33,709 nt of DNA from Saccoglossus kowalevskii. Its lineage: Eukaryota > Hemichordata > Enteropneusta > Harrimaniidae. This document shows positions 1 to 22,530 of the stretch, piece by piece. The stretch spans positions 113,206 through 146,914 of the forward strand of contig NW_003146289.1 of assembly GCF_000003605.2 (NCBI RefSeq), read 5' to 3'. The notes below the pieces were generated by a model. It saw only the letters and a list, made by a program, of their open reading frames with translations, did not search any database and was not told where the DNA came from. Each line of letters starts with the position of its first letter. Within the stretch, counting starts at the first letter, position 1. A program made the position numbers and the translations under genes.

Positions 1-3000
1 ACTGCAAATCATGCATGATAGACGAACCACACTTAAAATGTTTAGCATAATATCGTATATTATTATACATCTGTCACGTATCGCCGTAAGTTACAGCGTG
101 CCGTAATTTTGAGGTATTTTACCGGGTATTTTCATCCAACCATCAACTTCAGTGCTTGAAACTCGGTGTATAGATTCTGTACTCAAATTATTTCAAATAT
201 GACTTATACAGCACAGATCGCTGGGCATATGGCAATGTATTATTGGGAATAAGTCATAGGAAACTATTTGGAAGATATTTTGCTGAGTATTAAAACATTA
301 GTATTCGTTCATATCAATTAACAATGTCATTCGCTTGCACCTCACATCATGAGTGGAGATGTAGAAATACCGCAGATAACTGACAAATTCACTAAAGGGA
401 AACCAACATAGCATGGTATTTTCTTTAATAATGATTTAATATTATTGACATTTAATTTCATTTCGGTGTATATGCCTTTTTTAATTTAATGAAATAAAAT
501 ACAATTTGTGATATGTTGTTGATCTTTGATATAAGAACATTTCTTTCACACTTTATTTCCAAATTGTATCAAGGCGTGATATCACAGATTATTTGTTAAG
601 CAGACTAAAACCTAGAATCTACAAGTATATTTAATATTTATATGGAAATTGTTGAATTCACGCATTCTAAATATGAAAAAATGTAAAAATGAACAGTTTG
701 TTGTGAAAATAAAAAGTTACCACATATCACAATGACAGTTATACTTCTTATGTTTTATTCTACATTTTCAAAAAACAAAACAATGTTGTATTCCCTTCAT
801 TTTCCTAACAGTACTCATTTGAATCAAACACGGATTTATGTACTTAGCGGTCACCTGAGCAAACGAAGATTGCATCTAACGTAATATCGATATTTAATTG
901 ATTACCCGAATTGTGAGCTTGCATACAATATACAGTTTGATATGCTTTAAAATAATTTGTCTTTGAAAATAATTAGTGAATTTTCCTTTTTGAAACCTAT
1001 ACTACACCCTTAAGTGTATTTGTTAGTACACATTCACCGATTTCGACGTTTTAACATTGCATCAACGTGACCGAGTTAATATGCTTGACTATTTATCTTG
1101 TTGATGTAGTAATACGAAGTGTATCACGATGACTTCAATTCATGGCATTCACTTTGATTATATCTGAAATATTTATAGCCATACATTGATCCTGTGTATA
1201 TCGAATTATGTATTAGTTAATGAATCACATTAGACAGAACATTAATAAGCAAACTACCCGAGCCTGTTTTCCATTATATCTTTACGAGTAGAGGCGAGTC
1301 GTGTCAGCAGATATAAACCATTGTTACATTGTAAGTTGTAGCTATTACGAAAACAGAAACAAGAGTAAATGAGCTTGTGGCGTATCCACAGCATAGTGTA
1401 TGGCAGCTGTGAAACAAATCATCTCATAATCATGGGAAATAGTTATGTGATAGTTCTAGCGACAATAATTCGCTGTTGAAATTACAAACACGCTGAAAGC
1501 ATCATTTCAAATACAACTACTGGGCAAATGGTACTCATATAAAGTATAGATTACGAAACATTCACCAGACCGTGAAATCACGACATTTTTAGGCACTTCA
1601 CAAGCAATATAAGTAATTTACGAGACAATTCGCTCAGTTTTGATCTGGCTATTTTTTTTATTTAACTGTATAAGACAAGGATTGATAATCATTCCACAAG
1701 TTACACTTAATATGCCCATATTAATGCTTCAAATACTCAAGCCAACTGTTTTGCAAAGCCATATTTCTGTTTTAGTATGTTGCCCATCGTAGTAAATATA
1801 TCAAACGTGATTATCCTTAAAAGGATTTCCCTGAAGCATGATTATTATTGCAATATATTGTCATTTCAAAATAAACTGCCACTGTCCCAGATTAGCTTAA
1901 GTATGCAGATAATAAATACCTACCGCCGTGTTGGACGGGAAATCCGCTTTATGAGCGATGGTGTGTGTTGACAGTGATTAAACGTTACTAGTTAAATTGT
2001 AAATTATGTATCTAAATAAAAGTGTCACTGTGGGAATTATGTGCCATTAGAACAGTCATATACTTTCGATGTTAAACTCACATGGTTACTACACTTAATA
2101 TAAGCAGTTCCAGCAAAATAAAAGCACGCCAACGGCATTCAACGTTAATGTGCTGTACATTTGTCGTTTTGTATTGATATTATTGTTATTTTCCAAGCAT
2201 CACACTACCAGCACTGTACTATTTCAACGAGCTGTGTAGTTCCCGGTTTGAGATTGCCACAAGAGGGCGTTTTATGTATTCAAGTCAAAATAATAATATT
2301 GCTAAACGCTTCTGCTATTGATGCCATGTCTTTATGTTCACCTTGTTTTACTTAAAATATTTCAACATTCCTAATGAAATTCAGTAATAAATCATAAAAA
2401 AATACGTTGAAATAGTTCAATTCAATTCTATTAGATTGCTAGGCTTTCACATAGTAATCATGTAGCTGGCCTACACGCAAGCATCGTTTAAATGCCATGC
2501 TCACTTACAGTCATATAGTTTATTATCATATACACTATGAATAATAGAGTTTGATGATGCTGATATTTCACATTGTGTATTTCACCTATTCCATGCACTT
2601 TGCTAACTAGTATGCATCGCACAACATTAAACTTAATTACAGCCATTCAGTCATTCATCATGAACACATATAATTTGCCACACGTTGATTGAGGTGGGTT
2701 GTTGTTTATTACAATACGCTAAAGACCATTCGATCATTTCTTTTTTTAATTAACCTTGGTATGAATCGCACATGTTTGTCACAGTCAATTAAAAGGCAAC
2801 GGAGTGTGACTATTGTCAACTAATCGCTCACATAACAGGAGACGAGCACAAGTATTTATTGTATTCTATAACACTATATAATATTTAAATAACAGTCTAA
2901 TTGAAAAAGATATACTGTTACCTTTGATAAAGACGTACGTACTCTTGTCACGTAACTGAACTAATTACCAGCTAGTGCCTTTCAGCAGCGTCACAATTTA

Positions 3001-4672
3001 TCCACGTCCTAAATTACATTTCTTTCATCTATGTATCCTATTACCTTTTCTTAAAGCCCCCATTCCAATTCACCCGCATCACTATTCACTAGTGGTGTAT
3101 AACTAATAATAAATGGCGACAGCTTGGCGAAGGCTAACCCGCCGTGAAATGATTTCTTTTGCACGTCTCGTTAATACGCAATTAGTACAAATGTGTACAA
3201 TGGAACAACTTTGTCCACAACAGATAGAACACAACACGCAATATACTACTGTTATAGGGTGTGACGAACATCTTACATTAACAATACCAAACAAAATATA
3301 ATTAGTCATTTTCCTGTGTTCAAACACAGCAATTCAATTGATAAGTCGATTAAACATTCGTTGGGTAATATATTCTTGTAATTGTTCGGGACGTTTCATG
3401 CATTGAATCAAAAGCCACAGCTGAGAACTTCTATTGAGCATGAACACTAATGCGGCGAAATGTACTTTTCCAAATTAAGTGTATATTTGAAAACCATGCA
3501 TTAAGGTTTAATATATGCACTATTATTGAGAAAGTAACATCGAAATAATATGTGGGTCATATTGACATCCTCTAAAAATTCTAACTGTGTTTCATATTTC
3601 ACAATAGAACATTTGACCTTAAATGCATTGGACACTTTGTTTAAAAGTTTGTTCCACCCAACTTATCACGTTATGTCTCACATACAGTATATAATCATTT
3701 TTAATGTCCCTCATTACTTAGTATTCGCAAACTTCAGTGCTGAAAATGTTACCGCAAACATTTTTCATTACGTTTTCAAATAACATAAATGATGAATACA
3801 TATATAGTCAGGATGGTACACAGTGCTTTTAGTCAAATCTGAATGATTGACCGTCAAATGATATATTATAGTTTTCGTATAGCTTTGGTCTCTCCCAGTT
3901 TGGATGGTCTTCCTTCAATTACTGCCATAATTTGTAATGTTGAGTGATGGCCAGGCAGACCAAAGTGCATATTGAAATTACCAATCACTAATTACATCGC
4001 ATGATGCATAACGTATTATTTAATTCATTACATTACTGAAGATGAATATTTGTTTTTGTATCTATTCTAAGTCTTAAATGGACCGTATGTTGTGCAAGTG
4101 AAACAGAGATTGCCATGAATCGTGCACATCCAATTCAAGTATTGCTGGCTATAAATGCAGTTCCATGTTTTCTTGATTGTGATTTAGCTTTCTATAAAAT
4201 ATCTGTAGCACGTGTTGACCTATACACCGCCACGATGACAAGTTGATTAGAAATAATCTCTGCCTCGACCTTTTGCCCATGCACGTGTATACCATTTAGA
4301 TAAATGACATGTAATGTTGAATACCTGTATTAGTGAAGTGCATATAATCAAGAGTATTCAACCAGTTATAACAAGACCTGTCTTATCATTAAAAAAACTT
4401 GGTTCTTGTGCACACCGATTCATCGGGATTATATAATAATGTAAAGATTCTTCATCTGAAGTAACGCGATAATCTATCTGGGGATAACAACGCAAATGAG
4501 TGATTCTGTGAAGAAGCTAGAGTTCATCCCCAGTGGTCGTTTCTTTTGTGATGTCCTTGCGTATTTGCGAAGCTTGTGTTAGTTGTTTTGCCTTTTCGAA
4601 TAAAAAGAGAAGTCCGATCATTTCTGATTACATTGTATTTTCGGGTACGAATAGTCGGTTCTTGCAAACCAC
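1..4672. other. Gene-poor AT-rich stretch, nothing assignable
   Basis: I read both strands and found only short ORFs of up to 77 codons with no recognisable motif, no clear splice-bounded exon series, no tRNA-like or rRNA-like sequence and no tandem array. A 9-bp inverted repeat at 3883-3891/3957-3965 is within chance expectation. The stretch is best described as intergenic or intronic DNA. Confidence 0.6.
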
Positions 4673-4698
4673 TGTGCACGCGCGCACACACACGCACA
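4673..4698. repeat. Alternating pyrimidine-purine tract (Z-DNA-prone)
   Basis: Twenty-six bases alternate strictly between pyrimidine and purine, as thirteen TG, CA or CG dinucleotides with a CGCGCG core. Such tracts are known to adopt Z-form DNA under negative supercoiling. It lies about 110 bases upstream of an isolated consensus splice donor (CAG|GTAAGT, 4805-4813), but no gene is demonstrable here. Confidence 0.6.
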
Positions 4699-6087
4699 AC
4701 TTAAACAAGTACGACGGAGTATATCTTATAAATCTTTTCCAAATTATGTATCACATATAAACAGTGATTATGCCACTAAACACCATTCTCCGTGCAGAAC
4801 TAGTCAGGTAAGTTATTGTTTATCATTTCATATGCTAACGATGGCTACATGTTGGAAATATTGCACCGACAAAGACACCCGGAGTGCGGAAAAACACAAT
4901 CATTGGTATCTATTCATTGCAACCACTGCTATTATATGAATGTGTGATATACCCGTATTCGGATAATATCATTGATTTACTTGTTCAAGAAATATGGTGA
5001 GAGCTTTTAAGAACATTTTACCGATATTTTACCAAAAAACATCACTTCGGATATCAATTTCGCCGTAGATATCAGTAAACAGCGCCACCATATTTCACGC
5101 ATACAAAATTGCATTGGTGCTGACTGTACAACTGCGACCCCGTAGATAGTTTCCGTACAGAGGGGTCAATGAAAGTTACCTGACAATGGGGTTAGACATG
5201 ATAATAGCATTGCAAATATTGCAATACGGTATATGCGGAATTTGTACTATAAAGTTGTATCGATTGTTACCACACAAAAGGTATATAAGTGACTCAACTA
5301 TTTATATATATCGTAATTCTATATGTGTTGAGGTGAATCTAATTCATGAATTTGTTAATCTTATTAACTTTTCAAGTAAACGATTAGCATAGGAAATTAA
5401 AAGGTAACCATTGCATTTATTCGTCAATGTTTTAATTACATTGTCTTTGTTTGGAGTGATATTGTTATCACTGTATTGGTGCCACTACACTTAGCTATCT
5501 TAGAATATATTAGATGCAAACACAACGGTGTTATGTAAATCACTCAGAAACACAAAAGCAACGTTTCTGATGTACACTACTTGTTTTTAACATGCATTAT
5601 CTGACTATGACTCAGAATTTATGGCAAGTAGATTTGCGCACTTAGTAATTTCTTACGTCGCTTCCCGTTTGTAACCCCCAGGTGTTCTTCTGTCTAAATT
5701 CCCCTCACTGATTTAACCAAGTAGTAGTGTGTGTATCAGTGGTTTTTTGTCGTGAAAAATATTGTTTTGACTTTCTGTATAATTGTCAACATCTTTTTCA
5801 CACGTATACCTTCTTTCACTTTACAGTACTTCAGCAATAGCATACCGCACTTCAGAAACAATATTTTACATCAAGTCTTAGTTGTTTTAATGGCTTATAT
5901 ACATTTGTGAATGTTTCAGTAAAACATTTGCACATCGTATATTTACAGTTGTTTTACACACCACAAATATCGTGGTTTTGTCAGTTGTTTAATACTTATA
6001 TCTAATTATTTAAAACCTTTCTCTGTCTTAGTAAGTATGTTCTAATTATGTATTATTATTCATTTATACAACTTACATTCAATAAAG
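4699..6087. other. Gene-poor stretch with an isolated consensus splice donor
   Basis: No gene can be recognised. A perfect donor consensus CAG|GTAAGT falls at 4805-4813. An ATG at 4770 opens a short frame (MPLNTILRAELV) running into it, so a tiny first coding exon is formally possible but unsupported by any homology. A 10-bp inverted repeat at 4990-4999/5086-5095 is not beyond chance. Confidence 0.4.

Positions 6088-12834: not shown

Positions 12835-12873
<39 letters not shown>
12835..12873. repeat. (TA)19 microsatellite
   Basis: A pure TA dinucleotide run of 39 bases, the longest simple-sequence repeat in the window. It is likely to be polymorphic and prone to assembly error. Confidence 0.93.
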
Positions 12874-17476: not shown

Positions 17477-17816
17477 NNNNNNNNNNNNNNNNNNNNNNNN
17501 NNNNNNNNNNNNNNNNNNNNNNNNNNNNNNNNNNNNNNNNNNNNNNNNNNNNNNNNNNNNNNNNNNNNNNNNNNNNNNNNNNNNNNNNNNNNNNNNNNNN
17601 NNNNNNNNNNNNNNNNNNNNNNNNNNNNNNNNNNNNNNNNNNNNNNNNNNNNNNNNNNNNNNNNNNNNNNNNNNNNNNNNNNNNNNNNNNNNNNNNNNNN
17701 NNNNNNNNNNNNNNNNNNNNNNNNNNNNNNNNNNNNNNNNNNNNNNNNNNNNNNNNNNNNNNNNNNNNNNNNNNNNNNNNNNNNNNNNNNNNNNNNNNNN
17801 NNNNNNNNNNNNNNNN
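17477..17816. other. Assembly gap (340 N)
   Basis: The 340 unresolved bases mark a scaffold join. The true gap length may differ. Any reading frame that appears to cross it is an artefact. Confidence 1.
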
Positions 17817-18804
17817 ACTTTGCAGGACAAAGTTCCATGTTACAAAACGTCAGTTCCACCGTAAGTCAAAATATTTTACTTATGGACTATGTGTGTATAA
17901 CACAAGTTATTTTCTTAAAACAATTAATAATGGAAAAGATGCCAGTTTGCAATCGAACATGTGTATATGCATACAAAGCTGCAACATTGATGATTATGTA
18001 CATTGCATGACATTTGTATAATTGTATTATTCATGAAATGTGGCTAGGTTCCGTCGGTCTTTGCGTATAGTGTAATCAAATTAAAACTGCATAGGTAATA
18101 AGACACCCATAATGTTATGCATGGACTACGTAATCAATTTAAATTGAACCCCGCTATTGTCAATCGAGTAACCTTATAATGCAAATCAAACAATTTTCTT
18201 ATCGACCAAATATATCATTTATGCTAATGCATAATAGGATCTGTGAGTTTTGACAGTCACTGTCACAGTCACTACAGTCGCTTATTAGTCCAGTGGATTT
18301 AGCCCTGAAACAGGCCGAACCGGGAAGTAAATAGTACATTAACAAGTTTGGTATCAAAAGATAGGGATTTTTTGTACATTTACCCCAAAAAAATCCCAAG
18401 AACTGATAACATGGGCATTATTTTTACACGGGTACAAGTAAGGGGTAGTGGTTTTCGTACATTTTAGATTTTTCTTACATTTATATTTTGTAATTAATAT
18501 TACTTATAGCCTACACATTATTTCATATAGATATTGCTAGTGTTTTCTATACACTTTTTATTTAGATGAACTGAAGAAACTATCCGCCAGTTAAAGAACA
18601 CAAATTTGCTGATGTCAGCATTTTTTTACAATTATTTTAACTCTGTCAAGTAGTCAACCCATCAACCCAAGATTATGTCGCAATTGTGTTTGCTTGAACA
18701 CTTTCAGACTTTCTGAATGCAAACACTGACAACTTTTACCAAGATTTGAAGGCTTTTGTGCGTACTAAACGCGTCTTGTTTATAAATGCTTGTGATAAAG
18801 TTAG
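17817..18804. other. Gene-poor stretch upstream of the decayed large-protein locus
   Basis: Near 18251-18276 there is a short GACAGTCACTGTCACAGTCACT-like simple repeat containing the palindrome GACAGTcACTGTC. A pyrimidine-rich acceptor-like sequence ending TTTATTTAG at about 18565 precedes the first region with coding flavour. A frame around 18735-18815 (YQDLKAFVRTKRVLF) may be the N-terminal continuation of the decayed protein downstream, but I cannot align it confidently. Confidence 0.4.
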
Positions 18805-21445
18805 ATTCGTGCGTCCCTGAATTGCAGCATTGCAACAACAAAACTCAAGATCCACGAAGATGAGTGGGTGCAACAGGTACAAGCCAGAATTCTCAGCATC
18901 AGCAATTTTACATGATTTCCACTATCATGCAAAAATGAAGACCCTGAATCCAAAACAAATCGGCTCATTAAAACGAATGCAGAACTCATAAAAAATGATA
19001 TAAAATCGTCCAGCACAACTAGTTATTTCTACCCAAACACTGAAGGAATACAGTGCACTGAGAAAGCCATTGAGTACCTTCCATTCACCCTGAAAGTTTT
19101 ACTTCAAGATATGTTTGTTGTAAATGACACTGATGTTAAGGTCGCATCCATAGGACAGGCCATCATGCAGTCAGTTCGCCCCCGAGTTATAGTGACTCCA
19201 CTACAAGACTTGTTGTTCGAATGCATCGCCAGTTTGGCTCATGATTTCTCATTGATTCTTTCCATAGTCATGGGTTTTGTTCATCATATGCAGAGGTACA
19301 GATGTTTGAACGTAGTGCCACCTTGCACAAAGGAACTGACATTCCTGGTTTCACACCCGGACATTTTATGCAACATGTACCTGATAATGTTGACCATAAT
19401 GTCCGGACTATTGACGGGCTGAATACGTTTCATCAGGGATATTGTGGAACAACACCATACCTAAAGTTCATGTCACATCCGAGGATATAGTTTCTGTTGC
19501 AAAAGTCAATATTTAATATTATAAGCAGTTATCAAAGGGCATGGCCAAATTAAAGTATGCCCAGTTACCCATTTTGATAGCAGGTGGCTCTTTTGTGGAA
19601 AATCTATTGGTTCTTACAACCAACTAGACTATCTTGTAATGGCTTTATGCAAATGGTATATCAAGGTCCTCATACTGAAATCAACTGATGAACCATGTAT
19701 CTTCTCAACTGTGCTTCATCAGTGAACAAACCAGGAAGCATGATGTAACACTAGTGCTCACCTTCGATCAACCAGCCTTTGTGGTGTAAATCACTGGAAA
19801 TCCAACAGAATGAGCCCACAAGTAGCAGTGAGAGAAATATTGTTCTCAGACTGGGTGGTCTGCATGTGCAAATGAGTTTACTGGGTTGCATTGGATCTGG
19901 ACTTAAGGAACTATTAGAGACAATTTATGCTGAGTGGCAAGGCCATTTCCAGGGCTATTAGGAGTTCTACTAGAAGCAGCATTATATACATTGCTTTTGT
20001 CAATGATGTATGACCTTCCAATACCAAGAAAAGAGTCAGACATTATACCAGTGCTAGTGAATTAACAGATATACCCGAACATGGCGATTCCAGTAATGCA
20101 AATCAGTCACAAACAGAAAATACAACAAATGTTCGAAAGAAGCAGGGACCATCCTAGAGAGGCTTGCACACGAGACAGAAATAGAATCAGTTTGTTCGGA
20201 GGAAGTACTGACTCTAATACAGGAAAAAATCAACCAATTCAAGGAAACACTCAATTCCCTTAGAACATCCAAGTTATGGTTAAAGTACATAGGGATGAAT
20301 GAAATGCTCCAGCAGTTCATTAAAACCGAAAGAACTGGTAACTGGTATCTCCATCTAAAAGTTTTTTTTAGACATGCTTCCATACTTTGCTGCATCTGGC
20401 CATAATCTTTATGCAAAGTCAGTGTACATATATCTTCAGATTCTGTCAAAACTACCAGAAAGTAAGGCTAATGTATTTAGATCATTCCTGAAGGGATACC
20501 ATGTGGTTAAACAGGTACTGGGTAGGTATATCGACGGATCTTGCAATTGAACAAGTGTTGATGAGGAGTGTCAAAACAAATGCTGGGCTGAAAAGCGGTA
20601 GTTGTATGTCAGAAATACAATGTATCATTTGTCTACTCTCAACATTTGTATGTGCAGAAGTCAACGGTGCAATGCAAGAGTTCACTGGTGTTTCTTACAT
20701 CACAAGTGAGCAACACAAAGAGAGTACAAAGACCAGGCGAATTAGAGATCATATTGACCTAATGGAGTTGATGCAGTTTCTTCGTGCAATAAATCCATTC
20801 ACGAACAACTCGTCTCTATGAAGTATAGCTACTGGAGTTGTTGCTGATGACACAGTAAATGTATATAATGCTAGGTCTATTGGTGCTGAAATAATAAAGT
20901 CTATGATTGGAAAAAGCACAAGTGATTTTTCATTCACTAAAAATGAACAGGCTAAAACATTAAGTGTGAAAACGTGAAAACATCATTAAAGCTTGATGCA
21001 TATGAAGTACAAGTTGTCCCCAGTTGTTATTTCAAAGACTTTTTTATTGCAAAGGGAATTGTATCAACAGACGAGTTATCAAGGCTTTTCACCTATGAGC
21101 TGTGTACTCATCTACCAGCATTGTTTGCCTCTGATGGACTGATGCGGGAAGCAAACAAGCCAGCTTTAGCTTTTGGAAATGTGTTGGTCCCATTACTAGT
21201 GACATGTCCATTGAAGGTAAGTACGTTATTGATGGCGGTTCACTTTTACACAGAATTCCATGGCCACGAGGACTAACATATATGGGCATCTGCAAAATTT
21301 ACCTTGATTACATTGACCGCAAATATGGTAAAGAATCAACAGTTGTTTTTGATGGCTATCCAGATAGACCATTAACAAAAGACACAACTCATCTTAGGCG
21401 TTCAATAGGGAAAATGTCTACTTGTGTTAACTTTGATATATTGAC
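18805..21445 (+). pseudogene. Decayed copy of a large multicopy invertebrate protein with a truncated PIN/FEN-like C-terminus
   Basis: This is the only long stretch with sustained coding character. Read through its breaks, it gives ordered blocks: HEDEW (18853-18867); PFTLKVLLQDMFV then KVASIGQAIMQ (19138-19170); FERSATLHKGTDIPG and VDHNVRTIDG (19302-19425); PKVHVTSEDI (from 19460); NIVLRLGGLHVQMS (19836-19877); TERTGNWYLHL (about 20325-20357); LPYFAASGHNLYAKS; WVGISTDLAIEQVLMRS (about 20519-20569); ITSEQHKES; VVADDTVNV; YELCTHLPALF; VIDGGSLLHRIPWPRG (from 21225); VVFDGY (aspartate codon at 21351); TKDTTHLRR. From memory, unchecked, the order matches a family of roughly 1000+ residue unnamed proteins that is abundant in invertebrates. 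Breaks: TGA at 18913, shift near 19210, TGA at 19242, shift near 19450, shift at the T8 run 20362-20369, shift near 20500, TGA at 20819, TGA plus shift at 20975, shift near 21190. Reading order is kept over 2.6 kb without visible introns. The 3' end is lost after the second aspartate motif; an AATAAA follows at 21481. The nuclease role is inference. Confidence 0.8.
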
Positions 21446-22530
21446 CATTAGTATCCCTTACGCATTTGTATATGTACGCCAATAAAATGGCTTAATATTT
21501 CTTTTATATAGGCAATTTCACTACCTGAAAAATCAATTTTCCCTTTGTCCGATTTTGGTAGACTTTTGATATGTTGTTTGTAGATGTCTATTGTTGCTAA
21601 ATCTGCAAAGAAACTTTCTGTTGCAATTTTGTTCGGGTTGATCTAAAAATCCAATTAGATTGACTGGCCTACTAGCTTTTAAAAGACATCGACTTCACAA
21701 GGTCGACGGACTTTTGATGTCAGCAATGACGTCATCATGTATATTACGTCATTATTCATGTTGCAGTGATCTGTTACAGATGCAGATTTATATTTCATTC
21801 ATTGTTTTTAAAATATTGTTGCTATACAGTAATAAATTTCAATGGTAATTATAGGTTATTGCATGGTTGGATATCTGCGGTAGGTAAAATCAGTGCTAAA
21901 AACAATAAATCTTCAACATGCTCTAAAAAACATTGCCCAACGGTTTGGGTCTTGGGGTTTTTTTTGGTCATTCTCAATGACCTTAGCCAATGTTTGAAAT
22001 AAAATTCGCTAATGTACTATTATATTCCGGGTCAAACCCTAAATCCACTGGACTATATACAGTTCTTGTAAGATCAATAATATTCCAGGTAAGCGAATAT
22101 AAATATTTCACAATAAAACACACTTCGTCAGTAATACTACTGTCTTTTATATTTCAAATGCATTTCAACTATATATGGTCACAAATCATAGCGTTATTCA
22201 GGGTATCTTCTATACTCAGTATCTGTCAACTTACAAGGGCAGTATAAATAAATTCGGTCAAGACGATATATTAGTTTTATCGTATGACGATTGTGGTAAT
22301 TACACGCAGTACAATTTATCATTCCTTGACCGATATGCAAAGCATGTGACATTCTGATTCATTATCAATTCTGATGATGAATATGCACTCATTCATCAAA
22401 CAAGAAACTACTCGCTACAAAGCTACTGTGAAACGCCAACGGATTCTGTGTCTATGTGGCGTGCTTTCGAAGTAGATATCTCGGATATATACAGGTAAAA
22501 ATTACACATTGTTACACAAAAATCGATACG
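21446..22530. other. Non-coding stretch between pseudogene and tandem array
   Basis: An AATAAA lies at 21481-21486. A GTCGAC-containing segment with ATGACGTCAT (a CRE-like palindrome, about 21726-21735) and a second CGTCAT follow. The downstream part of the large-protein family (the expected further acidic nuclease motifs) was looked for and not seen, so the pseudogene is truncated here. The remaining short ORFs have no motifs. Confidence 0.5.

Follow-up and report, generated by a model that had tools for sequence, protein, structure and literature searches.

Academ DNA transposons are the described systems closest to the locus reported here, a decayed element in a 33,709-nucleotide stretch of the Saccoglossus kowalevskii genome (contig NW_003146289.1, positions 113,206 to 146,914; the whole stretch is called the window). 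According to one account, the two Academ lineages encode a helicase and a nuclease, and AcademX, for which Kojima 2020 is cited, produces 3- or 4-bp target-site duplications (PMC10045372). AcademH, of the superfamily to which the present element is assigned, differs in encoding a helicase and in its 9- or 10-bp duplications (PMC10045372). Academ is described as amplified in bivalves, with curated bivalve elements averaging 5,565 bp (PMC10294476), and a table of repeats counts 2,833 and 3,377 Academ-1 entries under two groups of columns (PMC8905726). KolobokE, KolobokD and KolobokP likewise combine a transposase with an accessory nuclease, but of different types (lambda exonuclease-like, DEDDh and His-Me finger; PMC9587614).

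The element shares with AcademX, as compared by description, duplications of 3 bp, inverted ends, a length close to 5 kb and a nuclease of its own, and differs in that the window copy is dead and has lost half of the nuclease. An earlier note, made from the letters of the window, had delimited 18805..21445 as the relic of a multicopy protein with a possible FEN/XRN-like nuclease end of the PIN type, and had suggested a mobile, intronless gene of undescribed mechanism. The analysis below indicates, with a probability of about 0.78, that the locus is a cut-and-paste DNA transposon, now dead, which most likely belongs to the AcademX lineage (Academ superfamily). This naming follows from the agreement of the 3-bp duplications and the encoded nuclease with what is stated of AcademX in PMC10045372.

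Ends and target-site duplications

The element occupies 18286-22055 (3,770 bp); its ends are inverted repeats, flanked on both sides by a TAT duplication (Table 1). Its outermost bases match without exception in inverted orientation (17/17; 18286-18302 against 22039-22055), and an alignment of the two ends, about 140 bases long, scores 102, against 64 for the runner-up among 295 sampled pairs (true pair included). DNA homology stops on the right at 22053-22055 in three near copies (c205, c3846 and c4442) and on the left at 18285/18286 in one, c3846; in c205 and c4442 the right end only was seen. The homology thus reaches beyond 18805..21445 on both sides.

Each end has 26 matches in the genome, itself included, and the 25 other left-end matches lie at 24 other places. 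Thirteen copies have a true pair of ends, and 12 of them were taken for the duplication count. At both ends of 11 of these 12 a perfect 3-bp direct duplication was found, and a 4-bp match in none (0/12); the chance of a 3-bp match is about 0.020 per copy. The 11 duplications are all different (TAT, ATT, TAA, GTT, TGA, TTG, TAC, TTA, AAA, ATA and CAA), and the sole copy lacking one, C2224, has a decayed right tip. Left out of the count were C4453 (both ends found, the left match beginning 9 bases in), C4610 (the right match being the same repeat) and single-end copies.

Two further groups with defined termini were considered and rejected. PIF-Harbinger elements make 3-bp duplications of the form TWA, to which GTT, TGA, TTG, TAC, AAA and CAA do not conform. 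The ends of EnSpm/CACTA elements start with CACTA-like letters; those of the present element start with TAGTCCAGTGG.

A 500-bp copy at G000:C3947:256824-257323 has both ends and a GTT duplication and is a short non-autonomous derivative. A more distant copy (L022:2242, reverse strand) carries an end-like terminal sequence (at most 3 mismatches) near a conserved block, and is perhaps a deleted subfamily member.

Coding relic and internal deletion

All relatives used for comparison come from the same genome as the window. An unbroken 760-aa piece of one relative (L014) matched 19209-21263 by tblastn, in order, on the forward strand and in three frames (best E-value 1e-52), and the nuclease of another (P0001) matched 21222-21401 with 55% identity (E-value 7e-16). 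Reversed versions of both queries gave nine matches, none below an E-value of 0.28. Many stops and frameshifts interrupt the blocks; their order and their breakage are both as the earlier note had read them. DNA homology to c3846 covers 18668-19433.

The reading in the earlier note needs correction at one point: its last block ends as protein at about 21437, and the residues that follow, to about 21485, are 3' sequence joined by an internal deletion, because the three near copies are longer at this point. The extra DNA amounts to about 1.57 kb in c205 (4200 to 5774), 1.61 kb in c3846 (4222 to 5836) and 1.39 kb in c4442 (4277 to 5672). In c205 and c3846 it encodes, in broken frames, the remaining nuclease and a Cys-rich tail; some 3' sequence is also included. 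As its frames are broken and half of the nuclease is lost, the window copy can no longer make the protein.

Table 1. Features of the element in the window (D, aspartate; E, glutamate)
Feature	Position	Strand	Remark
Left target-site duplication	18283..18285		TAT; one of the 11/12 copies with a matching 3-bp pair
Left terminal inverted repeat	18286..18425	+	Outer 17 bp TAGTCCAGTGGATTTAG exact
N-terminal body relic	18878..19208	+	Frames; similar text in open frame of L056
Protein-body relic	19209..21204	+	Broken frames; ordered tblastn matches
TIDG D	19413-19415	+	Candidate catalytic acid
FDQP D	19766-19768	+	Candidate catalytic acid
LAIEQ E	20549-20551	+	Candidate catalytic acid
First half of FEN/XPG-type nuclease	21205..21437	+	P0001 match
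VIDGG D	21231-21233	+	Nuclease acid, kept 14/15 in relatives
VFDGY D	21351-21353	+	Nuclease acid, kept 14/15 in relatives
Internal deletion junction	21437..21438		About 1.4-1.6 kb of three other copies missing
3' element part	21438..21925	+	Taken as non-coding; DNA homology to c205, c3846, c4442
Right terminal inverted repeat	21926..22055	-	Ends in CTAAATCCACTGGACTA
Right target-site duplication	22056..22058		TAT, paired with left

Elsewhere in the window, ten further open reading frames gave no Pfam match over the cut-off (one weak match, E-value 0.045). A 340-base run of N lies to the left of the element (17477-17816), and the sole TRF tandem array is a TA repeat of 19.5 copies at 12835-12873.

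Copy number and evolution

The nuclease half has at least 84 matches (137 scored candidates, 572-Mb genome); they lie on 55 contigs and, with neighbours up to 5 kb apart counted as one, at 58 places. A piece of the body matches 37 times, at 33 places of which the window is one. Together with the shared termini and duplications, these counts bear out the suggestion of a mobile, multicopy element. In relatives, a body exceeding 700 residues (L014) leads into the C-terminal nuclease, and in L010, L015 and L058 one open frame spans the boundary between the two, which agrees with the proposed lack of introns. Of the loci that were read, none was a fully intact copy; c3846 is roughly 5.3 kb long.

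When the window copy was compared with five near copies over the largest piece (20492-20818), the three codon positions were found to change about equally, as expected of decay after the death of the element. Smaller pieces were uneven: the second position was unchanged in four of five comparisons over 20822-20974, and the third changed most in three of five over 21135-21437. Between families, the third codon position was the most changed and the second the least in all nine pairs, and the protein was therefore under selection while the families diverged.

Five loci (L068, L072, L073, L074 and L075) belong to the same nuclease-bearing family and have diverged much further, which suggests that several old lineages of it are present in the genome. 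At L059, reverse-complement frames (2868-3559) adjoin the copy; we take these to resemble parts of a DIRS-like retroelement, its RNase H and its tyrosine recombinase.

The C-terminal nuclease

The nuclease of the relatives carries seven acids in the order of those of FEN1, including those other than the two kept in the window copy, and is predicted to fold as a PIN-like alpha/beta domain with a helical part after it, as in EXO1 and FEN1. The nuclease end that had been proposed is thereby upheld, in homologs that are multicopy. By sequence the resemblance is slight. The element nuclease is 11-18% identical to FEN1, EXO1, XPG and XRN in the rows compared and differs from them in its fusion with the protein of a transposon, in its Cys-rich tail and in being missed by Pfam: all matches of nine window pieces and six relative pieces were weak and fell below the curated cut-offs, and neither an XPG nor an XRN model was among the matches at E-values up to 1. 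PDB sequence searches gave nothing useful. The predicted model thus points to a fold relative of the FEN/XPG/EXO1/XRN 5'-nucleases, and not to a member of these families by sequence.

Three XPG_N matches in the same genome belong to another family, as no window piece matches those loci at E-values up to 1. Scans for close relatives, with two window pieces among viral contigs and with the nuclease half among prokaryote contigs, gave none that was confirmed. The Foldseek viral library also returned XRN/FEN-type nucleases and was uninformative on origin.

The protein body and alternative explanations

Invariant acids were found along the body in alignment A2 (L014 numbering: D72, 14/14; D142, 11/11; D510, 15/15; E514, 16/16; D583, 13/13; E692, 12/12), and the FDQP aspartate is present in ten pieces, eight others in that column being misaligned from another region. 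The body is a putative DDE/D transposase, with D72 (TIDG), D221 (FDQP) and E514 (SDLVIEQ) as candidate catalytic residues.

Several results weigh against the assignment as a whole. Pieces of two regions are misaligned in A2, which leaves its conservation counts doubtful; the body model built on it has a mean predicted local distance difference test score (pLDDT) of 50.3 and gave no Foldseek match below an E-value of 4.8, although, because of that misalignment, this failure says little about the fold. Foldseek TM-scores of the nuclease against 5'-nucleases are middling (0.35-0.49, normalised by query length), and a profile of it found no PDB chain by sequence. The AcademX nuclease is taken to be of the XPG type, and the likeness to AcademX is one of description.

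This last point, and the failure of every Pfam model to recognise body or nuclease, would be accommodated by a separate, unnamed superfamily with a FEN-type nuclease, AcademX-like only in duplication length and nuclease carriage. Such a superfamily is nevertheless unlikely: 3-bp duplications and an encoded nuclease are AcademX traits in PMC10045372, and the bivalve Academ mean lies near the length of c3846 (PMC10294476). Very improbable is a scheme in which the nuclease itself cuts for transposition, without a DDE transposase, and the body serves in DNA binding and assembly. Although a catalytic fold is confidently predicted for the nuclease alone, the invariant D72, D510 and E514 and the FDQP motif of the body argue against this scheme, as do inverted ends and short duplications like those of DDE elements; to our knowledge, FEN-type enzymes are known for single-strand flap or end cuts and not for strand transfer. 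Related open frames on many contigs might also suggest a family of host genes that segmental duplication has spread, an explanation that is rejected as scarcely credible, since homology stops at the inverted ends and 3-bp duplications of 11 different sequences, each rarely expected by chance, flank all but one of the copies counted. The element is therefore best regarded as a probable member of AcademX, an already named group, real but mostly ordinary.

Proposed mechanism and significance

In the AcademX-type element proposed here, the body transposase would bind the ends, excise the element and join it, with a stagger of 3 bp, to the target DNA. While the element is excised or the gap is filled, the fused nuclease may act at a flap or free 5' end, where it would cut or trim a strand; it might, for instance, free the non-transferred strand at the element ends. 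Searches of literature listings and passages found no role for the AcademX nuclease and nothing joining Academ with an XPG nuclease, from which absence from print does not follow. The suggestion of an undescribed mechanism is only partly right, because the element fits a named lineage.

An unnamed multicopy protein family is now linked with a transposon whose ends and duplications are exact, and the C-terminus of the protein has been identified by predicted fold, which would help annotators to mask such 'uncharacterized' genes. The reason for a transposon to carry its own flap-type nuclease becomes a testable question. It may be, at a little under an even chance, that this nuclease, FEN/EXO1-like and missed by Pfam, works as an integral part of the transposition machinery of an animal transposon group, the element performing strand processing usually left to host repair. 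If the proposal is true, many multicopy invertebrate proteins, so far unnamed, would belong to this group.
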